NCBI GenBank assembly: GCA_003859965.1
Contig: RQYR01000022.1
Coordinates: forward strand, 1-52,354
DNA from: Comamonadaceae bacterium OH2545_COT-014
Lineage (GTDB): Bacteria; Pseudomonadota; Gammaproteobacteria; Burkholderiales; Burkholderiaceae_C
DNA: 52,354 nucleotides
Direction: 5' to 3'
In this document: positions 18,257 through 24,989 of the stretch, piece after piece
How positions within the stretch are numbered: the first letter of the stretch is position 1
Layout of the letters: each line of letters opens with the position of its first letter
Position numbers and translations under genes: made by a program
The notes under the pieces: model-generated
The model's input: only the letters and a program-made list of their open reading frames with translations
Told to the model about the DNA's origin: nothing
Database searches by the model: none

Positions 18257-18306
18257 TGGGCAGATGGCGTTAAGTCGGTTTTCTCCATCCATTATTATTT
18301 ACATAA

Positions 18307-18325
18307 CACACATCGTATGAAGTCA
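18307..18325 (+). repeat. Left 19-bp direct repeat (candidate attL)
   Basis: CACACATCGTATGAAGTCA, identical to 20013-20031. It is preceded by TATTTACATAA (18296-18306), which matches the XerD arm of dif-like sites (ATTTAACATAA) at 8 of 11 positions; the XerC-side match is poor. It encodes HTSYEV in the frame of the following gene, just after an in-frame TAA stop (18304-18306). Confidence 0.75.
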
Positions 18326-18378
18326 AACAGCGGGCTGGACTGCGGCGCCACGATCCCGATACCCGCGCCCAGCTTGGC

Positions 18379-18939
18379 TTGAAGCTACGGCGCATGTATC
18401 AGTCCTTGGGCTGGTCACGCGCCGACTGCGCGCAGTTTCTTCACGTCTGCGAGCGCACTTTGCATAACTGGGAGCGTGGCAAGCACGATGTGCCTTATGC
18501 CGCCTTCCGGCTGCTGCGCATCACTTGCGGCATGGCGTTGCCCGGCCAGGCTTGGCGTGGCTGGTCTTTGCACGGCGGCAAGCTCTGGACGCCTGAGGGC
18601 GTCGGCATTGACCCGCAAACGGCTTTCTGGTGGGCTTTGCTGGTGCGGCGGGCTGAAACAGGCTCCAAGGCTCTGCGCGCACTGCATGAGGCCAAGGCGC
18701 GGCCAAGTGCCGGCTGTCAAGCCGGCGCGCGCCCATCGCGCGGGCGCGAAGGGGGCCCCGCTTGCGGGGATGCGTCGCGCTCAGCGATGGGCGCGCCGGC
18801 TCGGCTTGGTCAACGTGACGTGCTGGTTACACGTCACTTTAGTCCGGCGGGCCGGATTGCCGACAGGACCCCTGAAACCCCGCAAATCCAGCACTGGCGC
18901 GGCTTTCAGGCCGATTGGAGGCTTAAAGATGGCTTCTAA
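18379..18939 (+). CDS. VC1465-family Xer recombination activation factor, start codon displaced
   Basis: Helix-turn-helix protein of the VC1465/DUF3653 family, the group of TLC-phage XafT, which activates host XerC/XerD to integrate elements lacking an integrase. Family features: RRMYQSLGWSRADCAQFL, ERTLHNWERGKHDVPYAAF, and the DUF3653 motif WRGWSLHGGKLWTPEG. Only a TTG (18379) or an internal ATG (18394) is available here. The frame stays open back to 18307 (HTSYEVKQRAGLRRHDPD), stopping at TAA 18304. The natural start (SD GGGAGG, ATG 20004, MSIHTSYEV) is at the element's right end. Residues after about 110 are encoded over a large inverted repeat and are atypical for the family. The next gene starts inside the 3' end of this frame. 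Confidence 0.8.
   Translation: MKLRRMYQSLGWSRADCAQFLHVCERTLHNWERGKHDVPYAAFRLLRITCGMALPGQAWRGWSLHGGKLWTPEGVGIDPQTAFWWALLVRRAETGSKALRALHEAKARPSAGCQAGARPSRGREGGPACGDASRSAMGAPARLGQRDVLVTRHFSPAGRIADRTPETPQIQHWRGFQADWRLKDGF
18719..18803. repeat. Large GC-rich imperfect inverted repeat
   Basis: GCCGGCGCGCGCCCATCGC near 18720 and GCGATGGGCGCGCCGGC near 18784 are inverted complements apart from a 2-nt insertion. A smaller hairpin, GGGGCCCCGC-TTGC-GGGG, lies between them. It falls in the variable 3' part of the activation-factor frame and could be a folded signal on single-stranded element DNA. Confidence 0.6.
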
Positions 18940-19264
18940 AACTGTTGCACCCATTACAACGATACTTTCCGCCCCTTCTGGACGTGGAAAGTATCAACGT
19001 ACGCGCCTTGGTGCGGTGACTTGGCTGGCTGCTTCGCTGGGGGTTTCGCGCCAGCATGCCAATCGCTTGTTCCAGACCGGGCGCGTGGTTGGCGCCGTCA
19101 AGCTGCCTACCGGCGTCTGGGACTTGCCGCCGGGCTTTGTGGAGGTGATCGCGGGCACGCGCGGGCCGCGTCGCACGGTCGAAGACCGTGTTGCGGCCAA
19201 GCAGCGTGCGGCGCGCAATGCGGCACGCCGTCAGCGCCGTTTGCTCAAGGGAGGCCAGTCATGA
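18929..19264 (+). CDS. Small putative DNA-binding protein of the Xer-type element
   Basis: A 111-residue basic protein starting at ATG 18929, seven bases after a good GGAGG site and overlapping the upstream frame by 11 nt. Residues about 25-60 (TWLAASLGVSRQHANRLFQT, then RVVGAVKLPTGVW) look like an excisionase/MerR-type winged helix that reads DNA. The C-terminus (about 85-111) is a run of Arg, Lys and Ala typical of a nucleic-acid-contacting tail. Such a gene could be a directionality factor or repressor of the element. I do not recognise an exact family. Confidence 0.65.
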   Translation: MASKTVAPITTILSAPSGRGKYQRTRLGAVTWLAASLGVSRQHANRLFQTGRVVGAVKLPTGVWDLPPGFVEVIAGTRGPRRTVEDRVAAKQRAARNAARRQRRLLKGGQS

Positions 19265-19455
19265 ATGCTGTCTGGCAAGCAGAGTTGAAGGCGGTTGAGG
19301 CTGAAGTTGCCGAGCTGGTGGCTTTGCTGCGTCTGGGGCTGCCGGGCCAGCGCGCCGCGCTGGATCAGGCGGTGGCGCAAGCGGCCTGTCCGCGTGAGGC
19401 GGTGCAGCGCGCTTCGGCCCGGCTTCACGAGTTGGCGCGGGAGGCTCGTCCATGA
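19261..19455 (+). CDS. Small coiled-coil-like protein of the element
   Basis: A 64-residue, Ala/Leu/Glu-rich, probably all-helical protein (MNAVWQAELKAVEAEVAELV...). Its ATG overlaps the stop of the previous gene (ATGA) and follows AAGGGAGG, so it is translated by coupling. No family is recognised. Its place in the row of overlapping small genes is the main evidence that it is real. Confidence 0.55.
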   Translation: MNAVWQAELKAVEAEVAELVALLRLGLPGQRAALDQAVAQAACPREAVQRASARLHELAREARP

Positions 19456-19649
19456 GCTCCTTCACTGACCGCCTTTACCGGCAATGGCGCCGCTCCAGCG
19501 GGGGCAGCGGCGTTTTGCTGACCACGGGCAGGCCCGCCCTGCCCTTTGCGGCCCCCAAAAAAGCGAAACGCCAGCGGTTTGCCGACGCTGGCGCTTCTGT
19601 CCACAAACCGACTGAGAAGGAGTCGAATCATGGCATCTCGAAAGTGTAA
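19452..19649 (+). CDS. Small basic protein of the element
   Basis: A 65-residue frame (MSSFTDRLYRQWRRSSGGSG...) whose ATG again overlaps the preceding stop (ATGA). It is rich in Arg, Lys and Ser, with no membrane segment, and could bind nucleic acid. The stop TAA (19647-19649) overlaps the next ATG by one base. A second frame with a good AAGGAG site starts at 19630 (MASRKCNAAGG...) and runs to 20007, but its Cys/Gly/Ala composition looks non-coding. No family is recognised. Confidence 0.5.
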   Translation: MSSFTDRLYRQWRRSSGGSGVLLTTGRPALPFAAPKKAKRQRFADAGASVHKPTEKESNHGISKV

Positions 19650-19774
19650 TGCAGCTGGAGGAATGGGCTGCGGCCCTGCTCGTTCTGGTGGCGTTGGCTG
19701 GGCACATGCTGGGGTCTGTTTCCGGCGCGCCACGGCCCGTTCTGGCGCTTCCTGTGGGGGTATCGGGGGCGTAG
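19649..19774 (+). CDS. 41-residue hydrophobic peptide of the element
   Basis: MQLEEWAAALLVLVALAGHM then a short polar tail ending at TAG 19772-19774. Its ATG shares one base with the upstream stop (TAATG), the arrangement used for translational coupling. It has one clear membrane-spanning segment (residues about 6-24). Filamentous phages carry membrane proteins of this size (pVII/pIX-like), so a minor virion or assembly role is possible, but only size and hydropathy support it. Confidence 0.45.
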   Translation: MQLEEWAAALLVLVALAGHMLGSVSGAPRPVLALPVGVSGA

Positions 19775-20003
19775 CCCCTGATGTAGCCGCAACGCGGCGT
19801 AACCGCTGCGGTGGTTCTGGCGCAGCGTGCTACGCGGGCGAAGCGTTGGCTCTGCCCTGCCCTGTCTCGCGCCCTGTTCAACAGACGGCGGCGCTGGAAA
19901 TGCCCGGATCGGCATTAATGGGCGCGCGGCTTGATTATGTGGATAACCGCCTTGGGCTATTATTTGGCCCGCCCTCGAAGGATATTCATTCGGGAGGTGC
20001 GGC
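19766..20003. other. Non-coding origin-like segment of the element: hairpins and DnaA box
   Basis: Consecutive small hairpins lie at 19766-19778 (GGGGC-GTA-GCCCC) and 19786-19798 (GCCGC-AAC-GCGGC), plus an ACCGCTGCGGT palindrome at 19802-19812. A perfect DnaA box is at 19938-19946 (TGTGGATAA, reverse of TTATCCACA). The segment ends with GGGAGG just before ATG 20004. This may hold the replication or packaging signal and the promoter of the activation factor. Confidence 0.45.
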
Positions 20004-20126
20004 ATGAGTATTCACACATCGTATGAAGTCATCAAGACTTCAAAAAAGGGCTGTAAGCCCTTGATCTACCTAGCCGTTGAATCAGATGAACTGGTCGGAG
20101 ACTCTGACAGCAGCTACCCCCGCTGA
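20004..20126 (+). CDS. Displaced start of the activation-factor gene, now a 40-codon frame
   Basis: Preceded by a strong ribosome site (CGGGAGGTGCGGC, ATG), this frame reads MSIHTSYEV and then host-side residues IKTSKKGCKPL... to a stop at 20126. The first nine codons include the 19-bp repeat in the same frame as at 18307. Joining the two repeats in a circle gives MSIHTSYEVKQRAGLRRHDP..., a continuous activation-factor gene. As it stands it is a truncated product read into flanking DNA. Confidence 0.6.
   Translation: MSIHTSYEVIKTSKKGCKPLIYLAVESDELVGDSDSSYPR
20013..20031 (+). repeat. Right 19-bp direct repeat (candidate attR)
   Basis: CACACATCGTATGAAGTCA, identical to 18307-18325. Sequence diverges on both sides, as expected for the core of an attachment site. 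About 200 bp of gene-free DNA follow before the ICE relaxase gene ends at 20239; the ICE border may lie in it, but no second border repeat could be identified. Confidence 0.75.
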
Positions 20127-20238: not shown

Positions 20239-22851
20239 TCAGCTTCCTTGCATCAACCTGAGCACCGGATTGGCGGGCGGCACCGGCAGCACCCAGCGAT
20301 CCGGCGCCATCAGAACGATGGCCGAGAGCCGCCCAACGCTGGCGCCGCCTCGGCCGAGTACCTCGTAGCGCAGGATGTTGACTTTGCTGCGGCCCTGGCC
20401 GGCGCCCATGCGGTGCCAGCCGGCCTTGATGACTTCGCGCTGCACTTGAAGGCCGGTGGCCTCCGCTTCGGGCTCCGGGCCGGTTTCCCGGGCATACAGC
20501 TTGAAAATCAGCGGCGAGACCAGTGCCATGCCTTCTTCGGTGAAATGCACGGGGGCGCCTGATTCGTTGTACTTGATGACGCGGGCAGCCAGGCCTTGCT
20601 GGAGCCAGTGCATAAACGCGATGGCCTTCTCACTTGGCTCCGCCTTGCGCGAGGCGGTGTCTTGCGGCAGCTCGGGCAAGCTGGGTGTGAGGACGATGGG
20701 GGCTGTGACGGCTGCGCGTGCAGTCGTGTGCGCGCCGGCATTCGATGCCAGGCCTGGCGCCTGGAACAGTGGTCGAACGGCTGCGCTTTGGCGGGTTTCC
20801 TGGGCGGTTTGTTCTGGCTTTTTCTTGGGTGGGCGGACGCCACCGCTTCTGACGGCGGTACGTGCTGCGACAGCTTCTGGAAGCCTCGGCATTGCCGCAG
20901 TTTCCTGACCGGTTGCAGGGCTTGCCGCAGGCGTGGGCGCCTTGACGGGGCGGGCTGACGCCGTTGGCTTCATGGCCCTGACCTTTGGTGCGGCCGCGCC
21001 TGACAGGCTGCGCACATCATCGTCCTCATCCAGCCAGCCGCTGTCAGGCGCATCGAAGCCGTCGATGCCGCCACCGATGACGATCACGTCGCTGGCTTGT
21101 TCGGATGGCACCGAAGTGGGAGGCACTGGCCCAGCTTCCTGCTCCTTGGCTGCTCCAGTGCTTCCAGCCGGTTTTGCGGCAGGTTTGGGCGTAGCGGCCT
21201 TGGTTGCGGCAGGCTTGGGCTTGTTGAAGCTCGGTGCGCGCAGTGCCGGTCTGGACGACTTGCTTTCTCCGGGTTTCGCCCGGCTGCTGCTTTGCTGCCT
21301 GGCTGCTTCAGCCTGGCTTTCGTTCAGCGCCGCTGGAACAGGCAACTCGGGCGATGCAGGCAACTGGGGCAACGAAATGGCCTCGTCCTGCACCACCATG
21401 GCGCGGTCCTCTCCATCCGCCGCATCCAGGTCTTCTTCGGCGCCCGGCTTGTCCGGGCGCTTTGGCTTGACTTCGATGCGGCCGCACATTTCTGGCGGGT
21501 ACTGGCTGGCATCGTCATACAGGCGGGCCAGCGGAAAGCGCAGCATGGTCAGGTTGTGGGTGTAGACGCTGCCGTCGTTGGCGCCCTGCCCTGACCCCTG
21601 CCCTGACCCCTGCCCTGCTTCCTGCTCGCCCTGCCCGGCCTCGCCATGCACGGTGACGTACCAGACGGCCTGGCCGGTGTGCGGATTGACCTGGATGCAG
21701 CCATATTCCTGCCAGGTGTCAAAGAGCCGGTCGTTCTTGCGATCACCGGGGATGCTTTCGTCGGGCGCATGGTCCTTGAGCCAGGCGCGCACGGCGTCGG
21801 CCACGCGCTTGGCCACGAACCAGATGGAGCCGTCATGCACCCACCCTGCCGCGCCCGAGCGGTTCAGGGGCAAGGCGGTGCCGCTTTTGAGCATGGCTTT
21901 CAGCGCGCCCATGAGCAGCTCGATCAGGGGCACGCTGGTGGCGGTGTCAAAGCGTGCCCGGCTTCCCTGCTGCAAGGCCTTGGCTGTCGAGACCTGGTCG
22001 GCGCGCATCACGATTTTGGCGACCAGGCTGGCGCGGTCCTGGCCCGACAGGTAGTGCGTCAGCGTGTCCAGCGCATGCGGCGTGCGCGCCAGAAAGGCAA
22101 GCGCCGTGGCGGGCGCGATCTGGTGCAGGATGGTCAGCGCGAGCCGGCTGTGTGCGCTGTAGTCGCGCGCCGAACGAGGCGTGAACTCGACGCGGTACTC
22201 GGCCTGCTGCCGGCCGGCAGCCAGCTGCACCAGGCTGCCGCCCATGGGCGTCCAGCGCAGCGGCTCGGGCATGCGTGCGGCCCGCCACTGGATGCGCAGG
22301 TCGGTCATGGGCTTGGCAATGTCGTGCAGCAGCGCGGCGTAGAAAACGACGTAGGTCCACTCATCGCGCTCGGCGTCGATCTGCTCGATGGCCGCGCCTG
22401 CTGGCAGGAAGTGGCCATTGCGCCAGGTCATGGCCGCCAGGGTCATCTCCAGGGTGTGCGTCAGCAGCCCGCCCACATGGGCGTGGTGGTGCGACTCCGA
22501 TGCCGGCATGAGTTGCACGAATTCGGCCAGCCGGTGAATGGCTGGCAGCAAATCGCGCTGCCAGGTCACGGCTGCCAGGCGCGATTGCCGCCACATGGCC
22601 TCCAGCGCGTCGGCAGCGCGCAGGCTGCGCAGCAGCTCCTCGGCATCGAGCACGCGCAGCCAGCCGCGTTCCGTTCCCTCCAGCACAGGCACGGCCGGCT
22701 CGGGCGCTGACGCGCTGGCGGCCTCCGAAGGCATCACACCGACAGCAGGCGTGGCAAGCGCTGGCATGGTCGAAGCCGCCCTGCCCTCTGCGCGACGTGC
22801 GGGCAAAAGGCTGCGCCATCTCTTGAGCCATGAAATGCCTGCGTTCACCAT
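20239..22851 (-). CDS. traI: MOBH-family conjugative relaxase (TraI_2 type)
   Basis: An 870-residue DNA relaxase expected to nick the ICE at oriT and lead the strand into the secretion channel. The N-terminal TraI_2 domain (about 60-320) has the MOBH histidine/HD signature: ESHHHAHVGGLLTHTLEM at 119-136 and LLHDIAKP with H176-D177. A long Ala/Pro/Lys-rich region (about 490-740) follows, then the C-terminal TraI_2_C domain (MHWLQQGLAARVIKYNESGA, VHFTEEGMALVSPLIF). A repeat GQGSGQGSGQG near 425 arises from tandem CAGGGTCAGGGCAGGG DNA. The start ATG 22851 has no clear ribosome site. It is transcribed away from the tra operon. The nearby palindrome-rich DNA is the natural oriT candidate. Confidence 0.92.
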   Translation of the reverse strand: MVNAGISWLKRWRSLLPARRAEGRAASTMPALATPAVGVMPSEAASASAPEPAVPVLEGTERGWLRVLDAEELLRSLRAADALEAMWRQSRLAAVTWQRDLLPAIHRLAEFVQLMPASESHHHAHVGGLLTHTLEMTLAAMTWRNGHFLPAGAAIEQIDAERDEWTYVVFYAALLHDIAKPMTDLRIQWRAARMPEPLRWTPMGGSLVQLAAGRQQAEYRVEFTPRSARDYSAHSRLALTILHQIAPATALAFLARTPHALDTLTHYLSGQDRASLVAKIVMRADQVSTAKALQQGSRARFDTATSVPLIELLMGALKAMLKSGTALPLNRSGAAGWVHDGSIWFVAKRVADAVRAWLKDHAPDESIPGDRKNDRLFDTWQEYGCIQVNPHTGQAVWYVTVHGEAGQGEQEAGQGSGQGSGQGANDGSVYTHNLTMLRFPLARLYDDASQYPPEMCGRIEVKPKRPDKPGAEEDLDAADGEDRAMVVQDEAISLPQLPASPELPVPAALNESQAEAARQQSSSRAKPGESKSSRPALRAPSFNKPKPAATKAATPKPAAKPAGSTGAAKEQEAGPVPPTSVPSEQASDVIVIGGGIDGFDAPDSGWLDEDDDVRSLSGAAAPKVRAMKPTASARPVKAPTPAASPATGQETAAMPRLPEAVAARTAVRSGGVRPPKKKPEQTAQETRQSAAVRPLFQAPGLASNAGAHTTARAAVTAPIVLTPSLPELPQDTASRKAEPSEKAIAFMHWLQQGLAARVIKYNESGAPVHFTEEGMALVSPLIFKLYARETGPEPEAEATGLQVQREVIKAGWHRMGAGQGRSKVNILRYEVLGRGGASVGRLSAIVLMAPDRWVLPVPPANPVLRLMQGS

Positions 22852-24197: not shown

Positions 24198-24271
24198 CCA
24201 GGCGTCCTTCATGGCCGGTTCAGTTGCGGCTTGGCGCATGCTGGTACAGCCAGCCCGGCTTGTCACGCGCT

Positions 24272-24297
24272 TGCCCTCAGAAAGATTCCTGAGGGCA
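24272..24297. repeat. GCCCTCAG palindrome, copy 1
   Basis: TGCCCTCAG (24272-24280) and CTGAGGGCA (24289-24297) around AAAGATTC. The following bases (GTCGCTTGAACTGCAATCTG) resemble those after copy 2, so the repeated unit is about 55-60 bp and degenerate. Confidence 0.8.
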
Positions 24298-24415
24298 GTC
24301 GCTTGAACTGCAATCTGTTTTCTGATAGGCGCTCGCATGGGGCAAGGGTGCAGATAAGCCCGCTGCGGCGAGTGGCTTCCCGTCAGGCGCGACGAGGCCG
24401 CGACCTGGCCCTGGC

Positions 24416-24721: not shown

Positions 24722-24752
24722 CCTGCACAGATGGACCGTTTTTTCAATCGTC

Positions 24753-24778
24753 TGCCCTCCTAAATCTTCCTGAGGGCA
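24753..24778. repeat. GCCCTCAG palindrome, copy 2
   Basis: TGCCCTC (24753-24759) and GAGGGCA (24772-24778) around CTAAATCTTCCT. Downstream AATGCTTGACAGATAAGCAATCTTCTGA parallels copy 1. A further hairpin, GAAACTGGC (24805-24813) with GCCAGTTTC (24831-24839), follows. Confidence 0.75.
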
Positions 24779-24947
24779 AATGCTTGACAGATAAGCAATC
24801 TTCTGAAACTGGCGTTTTTGCTGGCTTTCGGCCAGTTTCTCCCTCCACGGCGAACGCCATTTCTCGCGCTGCGACGACGATTTGTTGTTGATGGGCAACG
24901 CATCTGTCCAAGCATTGCAGACCGCTAGCAGATTTCATCAGCCATGT

Positions 24948-24989
24948 CCAGCGTTTGCCCTCAGAAATCTTGCTGAGGGCAAACGCTGG
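24948..24989. repeat. GCCCTCAG palindrome, copy 3 (17-bp arms)
   Basis: CCAGCGTTTGCCCTCAG (24948-24964) and CTGAGGGCAAACGCTGG (24973-24989) are perfect inverted complements around AAATCTTG. It is the longest and cleanest of the three copies. Confidence 0.85.

Follow-up and report, generated by a model that had tools for sequence, protein, structure and literature searches.

A TLC-phi-type mini-element at the dif site of a Comamonadaceae bacterium and the proposed loss of its Xer activation factor's translation start upon integration

The stretch of DNA considered here, which we call the window, comprises 52,354 nucleotides of contig RQYR01000022.1 from Comamonadaceae bacterium OH2545_COT-014 and harbours, at the chromosomal dif site, a 1.7-kb element that carries a gene for a putative Xer activation factor of the VC1465/XafT family, here termed xaf. 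The element is flanked by a 19-bp perfect repeat, as a preliminary description of this DNA had claimed: the 19-mer CACACATCGTATGAAGTCA occurs exactly at 18307–18325 and at 20013–20031, both on the forward strand, these being the only two sites with at most three mismatches in the organism's own genome (G000, a 3.1-Mb draft in 86 contigs), and it is absent from all 100 shuffled versions of the window. Seventeen of the 19 bp belong to the recombination site proper, namely a 6-bp centre and an 11-bp XerC arm, the rest being CA. At the left end of the element lies the full 28-bp host dif (18296–18323, reverse strand in the canonical orientation), which consists of the XerD arm TATTTACATAA (18296–18306), the centre CACACA (18307–18312), and the XerC arm TCGTATGAAGT (18313–18323), the arms having been identified from the dif annotated in TLC-Kn1 (HM134800). 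The right copy of the repeat forms the right end of the element and is preceded by a divergent XerD arm (20002–20012, forward strand); the two ends have the 17 bp of centre and XerC arm in common and differ in their XerD arms (TATTTACATAA versus GCATGAGTATT).

The canonical dif pattern had no match in the organism's own genome, and it was a genus-specific pattern that succeeded: with at most three mismatches it gave a single match there and matches in 20 of the 29 genus genomes searched, this one included, which together supply 24 dif-like loci, four of them from one genome. One of these genomes has, besides its main dif, another dif-like site that differs at three positions (L131, G025:C1:4686-4711). 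The cyclase and FHA gene found to the left of dif in the window is present at 13 of the 24 loci (at L117 it lies on the opposite side), and a xaf frame is present at 10. The preliminary description had proposed to look for empty sites in related strains: at L123, L124, and L116 a MobH sequence (49, 72, and 35 % identical to the window MobH over the matched stretches) lies some 200 bp beyond dif, no xaf separating the two, and these loci serve as comparison sites without the 1.7-kb element. The element is thus integrated at the chromosomal dif with a full dif left at one end, in the manner of a TLC-phi-type integrative mobile element exploiting Xer (IMEX). The attP of TLC-phi likewise combines the centre and XerC arm of dif with a divergent XerD arm (PMC5357621), and the XafT protein of a Vibrio cholerae IMEX is described as activating XerD (PMC9765430).

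The xaf frame begins with the left copy of the repeat and extends on the forward strand over 210 codons (18307–18939, with its stop at 18937–18939). It scores 77.3 bits against NF040522 (VC1465_fam, Xer activation factors; cut-off 70), while the Pfam models HTH_31, for a helix-turn-helix (HTH) domain, and DUF3653 both remain slightly below their cut-offs; all in all, the frame matches HTH, DUF3653, the VC1465 family, and a few phage families, and has no recombinase match. In the integrated state it lacks a start: a TAA belonging to the XerD arm of dif (18304–18306, forward strand) adjoins it in frame and closes it upstream, and the earliest in-frame starts after the left copy are TTG 18379 and ATG 18394. 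At the right end, an ATG in xaf phase (20004–20006) stands three codons ahead of the core, with the Shine–Dalgarno sequence GGGAGG before it at 19992–19997, both on the forward strand, and this ATG would be the start codon in the predicted circular form. Its anti-Shine–Dalgarno pairing amounts to −11.6 kcal, as compared with −1.5 for TTG 18379 and −1.7 for ATG 18394. Both halves of the arrangement proposed in the preliminary description, a start-less activation factor in frame with the left copy and a ribosome-binding site with an ATG in phase before the right one, are thereby confirmed. Starts that lie across an attachment site might mislead gene callers.

To place this anatomy in context, xaf copies were collected from several sources: 60 related genomes (15 matching at E 0.001) together with sets of 399 genomes from the family, 369 from the class, and 399 from the order, of which 16, 2, and 7, respectively, exceeded the cut-off, these groups being partly overlapping; the IMG/VR database, from which a profile alignment retrieved nine loci; and GTDB genomes, with 44 loci whose titles include Acidovorax, Paracidovorax, Comamonas, Xylophilus, Hydrogenophaga, Rhodoferax, Polaromonas, Brachymonas, and Arenimonas. 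The window protein itself had no match among phages and plasmids (tblastn, E 0.001) or, as a single-protein query, in IMG/VR; a relative (L080) drew 23 weak phage records with E up to 1. The survey set consists of the window, L051–L082, L105, and L134–L177, from which were dropped before counting the loci with a core but a xaf score below 60 bits (L076, L077, L105, L162, and L173), those with no core (L070, L078, and L176), rows repeating the first 120 nt of another row (including the second copy of L064 and the middle copy of L079), and one duplicate right end (the second of L058). This left 63 distinct xaf copies of at least 60 bits, 27 of which gave no right end owing to a contig end, decay, or divergence.

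A dif-type left end is present in 53 of these 63 copies. An in-frame stop lies within 13 nt in 47 of the 53, an upstream in-frame start within 30 nt in only two, both being TTG codons in Xylophilus, and an ATG inside the XerC arm in 14. VC1465-family loci outside dif (including L091–L104 and L106), in which the search used found no dif core, were excluded from the elements counted below; these loci do not follow the attachment-site design, and several of them, on visual inspection, showed an ordinary start codon a short distance upstream. Also excluded were four xanthomonad viral contigs (L083–L086), where a core lies in the xaf frame with no in-phase start within 30 nt; they are read as junctions with another phage because the DNA ahead of the core in L084 and L085 matches XacF1/Cf1c.

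Both ends could be delimited for 35 distinct elements, which measure 875–2728 bp (median 1435), and at 25 of their right ends an ATG (24 cases) or GTG (1 case) lies within 27 nt upstream in the phase of xaf, a phase set independently by the xaf frame at the left end; in the other two phases ATG, GTG, or TTG is found in 10 of 70 cases (p = 9e-9). The remaining 10 elements have an in-phase ATG inside the XerC arm, with the result that 24 elements have an upstream start only, 10 an arm start only, one has both, and none has neither (Fisher p = 6e-8), although these p-values overstate independence because the elements are related. In a tree of the proteins stripped of their attachment-encoded residues, nine of the 10 elements in the arm class group as a single clade, while the tenth, from Arenimonas, stands separately, so the arm class would amount to about two origins rather than ten. 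All three phases (0, 1, and 2) are found and the start tracks the phase; the XerD arm, for its part, puts an in-frame TAA in phases 0 and 1. A start at the attachment site is therefore the rule and not an accident among these elements: where the preliminary description had named, as an outcome that would count against it, homologues with the repeat outside the gene or with natural internal starts, the outcome for the dif-integrated relatives was in its favour, all 35 distinct elements with both ends found having an in-frame initiator at the attachment site.

This regularity also bears on two ways of explaining the overlap without any regulation. It might be that the copy in the window is a dead remnant in which the overlap arose by chance during decay, and several copies from the same genus are indeed truncated or lack a right end that could be found (L069, L071, and L075–L077); given, however, that the two ends of the window copy agree perfectly over 19 bp, that its 210-codon frame scores above the family cut-off, and that 35 elements have the same design, we regard this as very improbable. 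Alternatively, attP might overlap the gene as a matter of compaction only, owing to the tiny size of the elements, with the integrated copy being translated through host read-through or from a weak start. The elements are certainly very small, the stop of xafT abuts dif in TLC-Kn1 as well, and those of the arm class retain their ATG, but against compaction alone stand the near mutual exclusion of upstream start and in-arm ATG, the way in which starts track the three phases, and the in-frame TAA of the XerD arm in two of them, and it appears unlikely to us.

Somewhat less improbable, though still doubtful, is a two-form switch, in which the circle would yield full-length Xaf and the integrated copy a shorter form from TTG 18379 or ATG 18394 that could serve, for example, as a repressor or immunity factor. 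Internal starts do follow soon after the core in the window and in 25 of the 35 elements in all, and analogous hypotheses have been published for ORF13 of phiRSS0 (PMC3816273) and for the integration-dependent immunity of mycobacteriophage BPs (PMC4557955). Against a shorter product stand the 10 elements in which the span examined contains no internal start and the weakness of the best internal-start Shine–Dalgarno sequences (median −1.7 kcal, with 4 of 25 at −4 or below), and a start at ATG 18394 would omit a conserved segment ahead of it. In an alignment of 12 sequences, the window included, the third positions of codons 7–24, which precede 18379 and 18394, vary more than the others (entropies 0.75, 0.66, and 1.05 for the three positions; permutation p about 0.01).

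The right ends have a further feature in common, a GAA-N5-TTC dyad, represented in the window by GAAGGATATTC (19977–19987, 36 nt before the right core) and proposed here as an accessory or operator site. An exact dyad occurs within 70 nt before the core at 30 of the 35 right ends, in 25 cases with its start 35 or 36 nt ahead of the core (32, 33, 34, 37, or 45 nt in the others), and four of the five right ends without one have a one-mismatch form at 35 or 36; the corresponding figures are 1 among 53 dif ends and 27 among 7000 windows drawn at random within the elements, all of these counts being descriptive and not a test, as the dyad was discovered in the same right ends. When 398 family genomes were searched for the dyad at the given spacing before TATACATCGT, a pattern that cannot match the window with its centre CACACA, eight genomes matched, once each, while the reversed dyad gave none among the matches listed; all eight belong to the 16 xaf-positive family genomes already in the survey set, and the search shows the specificity of the dyad rather than confirming it independently. 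Since the dyad is common to both start classes, it is not merely a ribosome-binding site; it probably binds Xaf, an HTH-type protein, or a partner of it, beside the poor, divergent XerD arm. A run of T precedes the dyad in many elements.

Tandem arrays contain the type of junction that would be expected of a circle. Where neighbouring copies share the same phase, an in-phase start is found at the junction, namely ATG at −15 in L058, at −23 in L063, at −23 in L155, at −20 in L159, and at −7 in the middle copy of L079, and GTG at −24 in L064, the internal copies of L155 and L159 carrying an in-arm ATG in addition; where neighbours differ in phase (the second copy of L051, the third of L079, and L148) there is no in-phase ATG, and L148 has a TTG only. 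In the second copy of L159 and in L161 the left copy of the core has the in-arm ATG where the right copy has ATA.

From these observations we consider it likely that the window contains a TLC-phi-type, Xer-exploiting mini-element at dif, the integration of which severs the translation start of its own activator and thereby acts as a self-limiting switch. The host XerC/XerD would integrate the 1.7-kb element at the host dif, the attachment site of the element being embedded in the 5′ end of the gene for its Xer activation factor. In the circle, the right arm would provide the Shine–Dalgarno sequence, the ATG, and the initial codons, and the residues that follow (MSI-HTSYEV...) would come from the centre and XerC arm; Xaf would be made and would activate XerD, upon which the centre and XerC arm would recombine with dif. 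On integration the host XerD arm would take the place of the right arm, bringing the TAA up against the xaf frame and removing the translation start. Production of Xaf would end at this point, Xaf-driven excision would no longer be self-driven, and the integrated state would be stable until restarted by an intact copy or helper acting in trans, or by a tandem array in which the junction is regenerated.

Several points weigh against this proposal, beginning with the relatedness of the elements and the descriptive nature of the dyad counts, both mentioned above. That Xaf acts as an Xer activation factor is something we infer from its family membership. The preliminary description had held that integration would cut the factor off from both its start and its promoter; the former is borne out by the anatomy and by the phase rule of the family, whereas the latter is not, a promoter scan of the forward strand having found no promoter-like site. 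A control of the codon test on codons 31–50, in the HTH part of the protein, was not significant (0.69, 0.57, and 0.77; p 0.14), and the test must accordingly be considered low-powered. The left ends of Xylophilus L051 and L057 have an in-phase TTG in the host-side arm (TTTGACTATACATAA), which is either a genus-specific dif or the remnant of another element's arm. The 10 elements of the arm class keep their ATG after integration, so for them it is the Shine–Dalgarno sequence that integration would remove (median −5.8 kcal with the element arm and +1.8 with the dif arm, n = 10; 5 of 10 at −4 or below), which is weaker evidence; in the upstream class, too, the Shine–Dalgarno signal is only modest, with 12 of 25 at −4 kcal or below against a background of 516 of 1890. 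The right copy of L105, with just a TTG at −12 as its nearest in-phase start, counts against the proposal or leaves it undecided. As regards left ends not at dif, a start lies within 30 nt in five of ten (L058, L063, L155, L159, and, with TTG only, L148), but no in-phase start is found within that distance in the other five (L051 second, L079 third, L082, L140, and L143). Finally, searches of IMG/VR for small circles by means of right-end patterns returned 0 and 1 contigs, the one being a known tandem contig, and hence no free circle.

Among the closest known systems is TLC-phi, which the window element resembles in its type of attP and in having a VC1465/XafT-family factor. The VC1465-like gene of TLC-Kn1 (HM134800), however, is oriented in the opposite direction; it keeps its start and its stop abuts the XerC arm, so the factor is not decapitated by integration, whereas the proposed start of the window's xaf gene lies across the site from the integrated frame. 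TLC-Kn1 further carries a VC1466-like gene, and the GAA-N5-TTC dyad is absent from its 1877-base record. In the same record (L182, 1655–1759) the annotation describes a VC1471-like ORF (open reading frame) that the integrating phage disrupts at the right dif; an ORF across attP therefore exists in TLC-phi as well, though it is not xafT. SSV-type archaeal integrases offer a parallel of another kind, for in these attP lies inside the gene that drives integration and integration splits this gene, recombinases that disrupt their own gene being stated there to be exclusive to archaea (PMC8371274). The gene split in SSV-type elements is the recombinase itself, whereas in the window it would be an activator of host recombinases, and only its translation start would be lost. 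In its way of working the mini-element family is like the SSV-type suicidal integrases, yet it is a variant of the TLC-phi type.

Attachment sites inside genes are also known from inoviruses. XacF1 of Xanthomonas has attP in the coding region of ORF12, which is split on integration, and deletion of the 5′ part makes the prophage unstable (PMC5666396); Xer/dif integration is common to XacF1 and the window element, but ORF12 is a different protein, a regulator that keeps its start and has attP near its C-terminal end. The Ralstonia inovirus phiRSS0 carries a dif-like attP within the regulator gene ORF13 (PMC3816273, PMC4471427), and mycobacteriophage BPs has an attachment site tied to a control gene that is changed by integration (PMC4557955). 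ORF13 is truncated by 26 C-terminal residues on integration and retains its start. In BPs the gene is reportedly a repressor, the integrase is phage-encoded, and the other end of the gene is affected, unlike in the window element. The gonococcal genetic island is an Xer/dif element as well and has a dif-like site with a divergent XerD arm, but it measures 57 kb, and the description of it in the passages available mentions no split activator (PMC5357621). An Xer activation factor that loses its start by integration was not found among the open-access matches listed, the primary XafT and TLC-phi papers lying outside that scope, nor was a start-removed one found in the excerpts of PMC9765430, PMC5357621, PMC3731265, PMC4471427, PMC5608472, PMC3816273, and PMC8371274 or in the main text of PMC5666396.

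Behind xaf, the element carries three small ORFs on the forward strand (18929–19264, 19261–19455, and 19452–19649), none with a Pfam or PHROG match; the third begins MSSFTDRLYRQWRR, and similar small ORFs are found in several other elements of the family. TLC-phi has its own replication initiator, but no Pfam or PHROG match to one was found in the other small ORFs of the window element, nor did these searches find in it the Zot/pI and coat genes characteristic of Inoviridae; the single Zot gene of the genome is located at another place (C12:36121). A filamentous phage may act as a helper, since a Zot gene or a phage replication initiator stands beside the xaf elements on the IMG/VR contigs L079–L082. 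The elements of L062, L065, L056, L063, L060, L079, and L081, but not that of the window, encode a small protein with the conserved motif LRLPxxLxxxARxRxxxxGISLNALV, which we take to be a ribbon-helix-helix-like protein. Beyond the right end of the 1.7-kb element, and thus also to the right of dif, the window (20031–52354) contains an integrative and conjugative element (ICE) of the PFGI-1 type, whose MobH relaxase is encoded on the reverse strand at 20239–22851 (NF041494, 341.4 bits; TIGR03760, 196.5 bits). MobH following dif here and in three other genus genomes (L123, L124, and L116) suggests an ICE family that likewise uses dif; a matching core at the far end of the ICE was not found in G000, G022, or G028, and G008 gave one extra weak match (C124:24580). 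The ICE side of the window also contains three related 43-bp repeats (24261–24303, 24742–24784, and 24945–24987), which pair as inverted repeats as well.

The arrangement bears on how elements that borrow XerC/XerD commit themselves to integration and then remain beside a working dif. If the proposed mechanism is true, a single recombination event would both insert the element and remove the start of its activator, the switch being written in the attachment site itself, and the dyad with its near-fixed spacing would offer a concrete candidate for the DNA site at which an Xer activation factor acts. With the chances about evenly balanced, the whole family, which is widespread in bacteria and has elements of roughly 1–3 kb, may be regarded as a self-extinguishing integration cassette made up of an activator, a dyad operator, and an attP that doubles as a translation-initiation region. 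Such a cassette would be the bacterial, host-recombinase counterpart of the archaeal suicidal integrases, and the principle of self-disrupting integration would thereby be extended to bacteria and to a recombinase supplied by the host.

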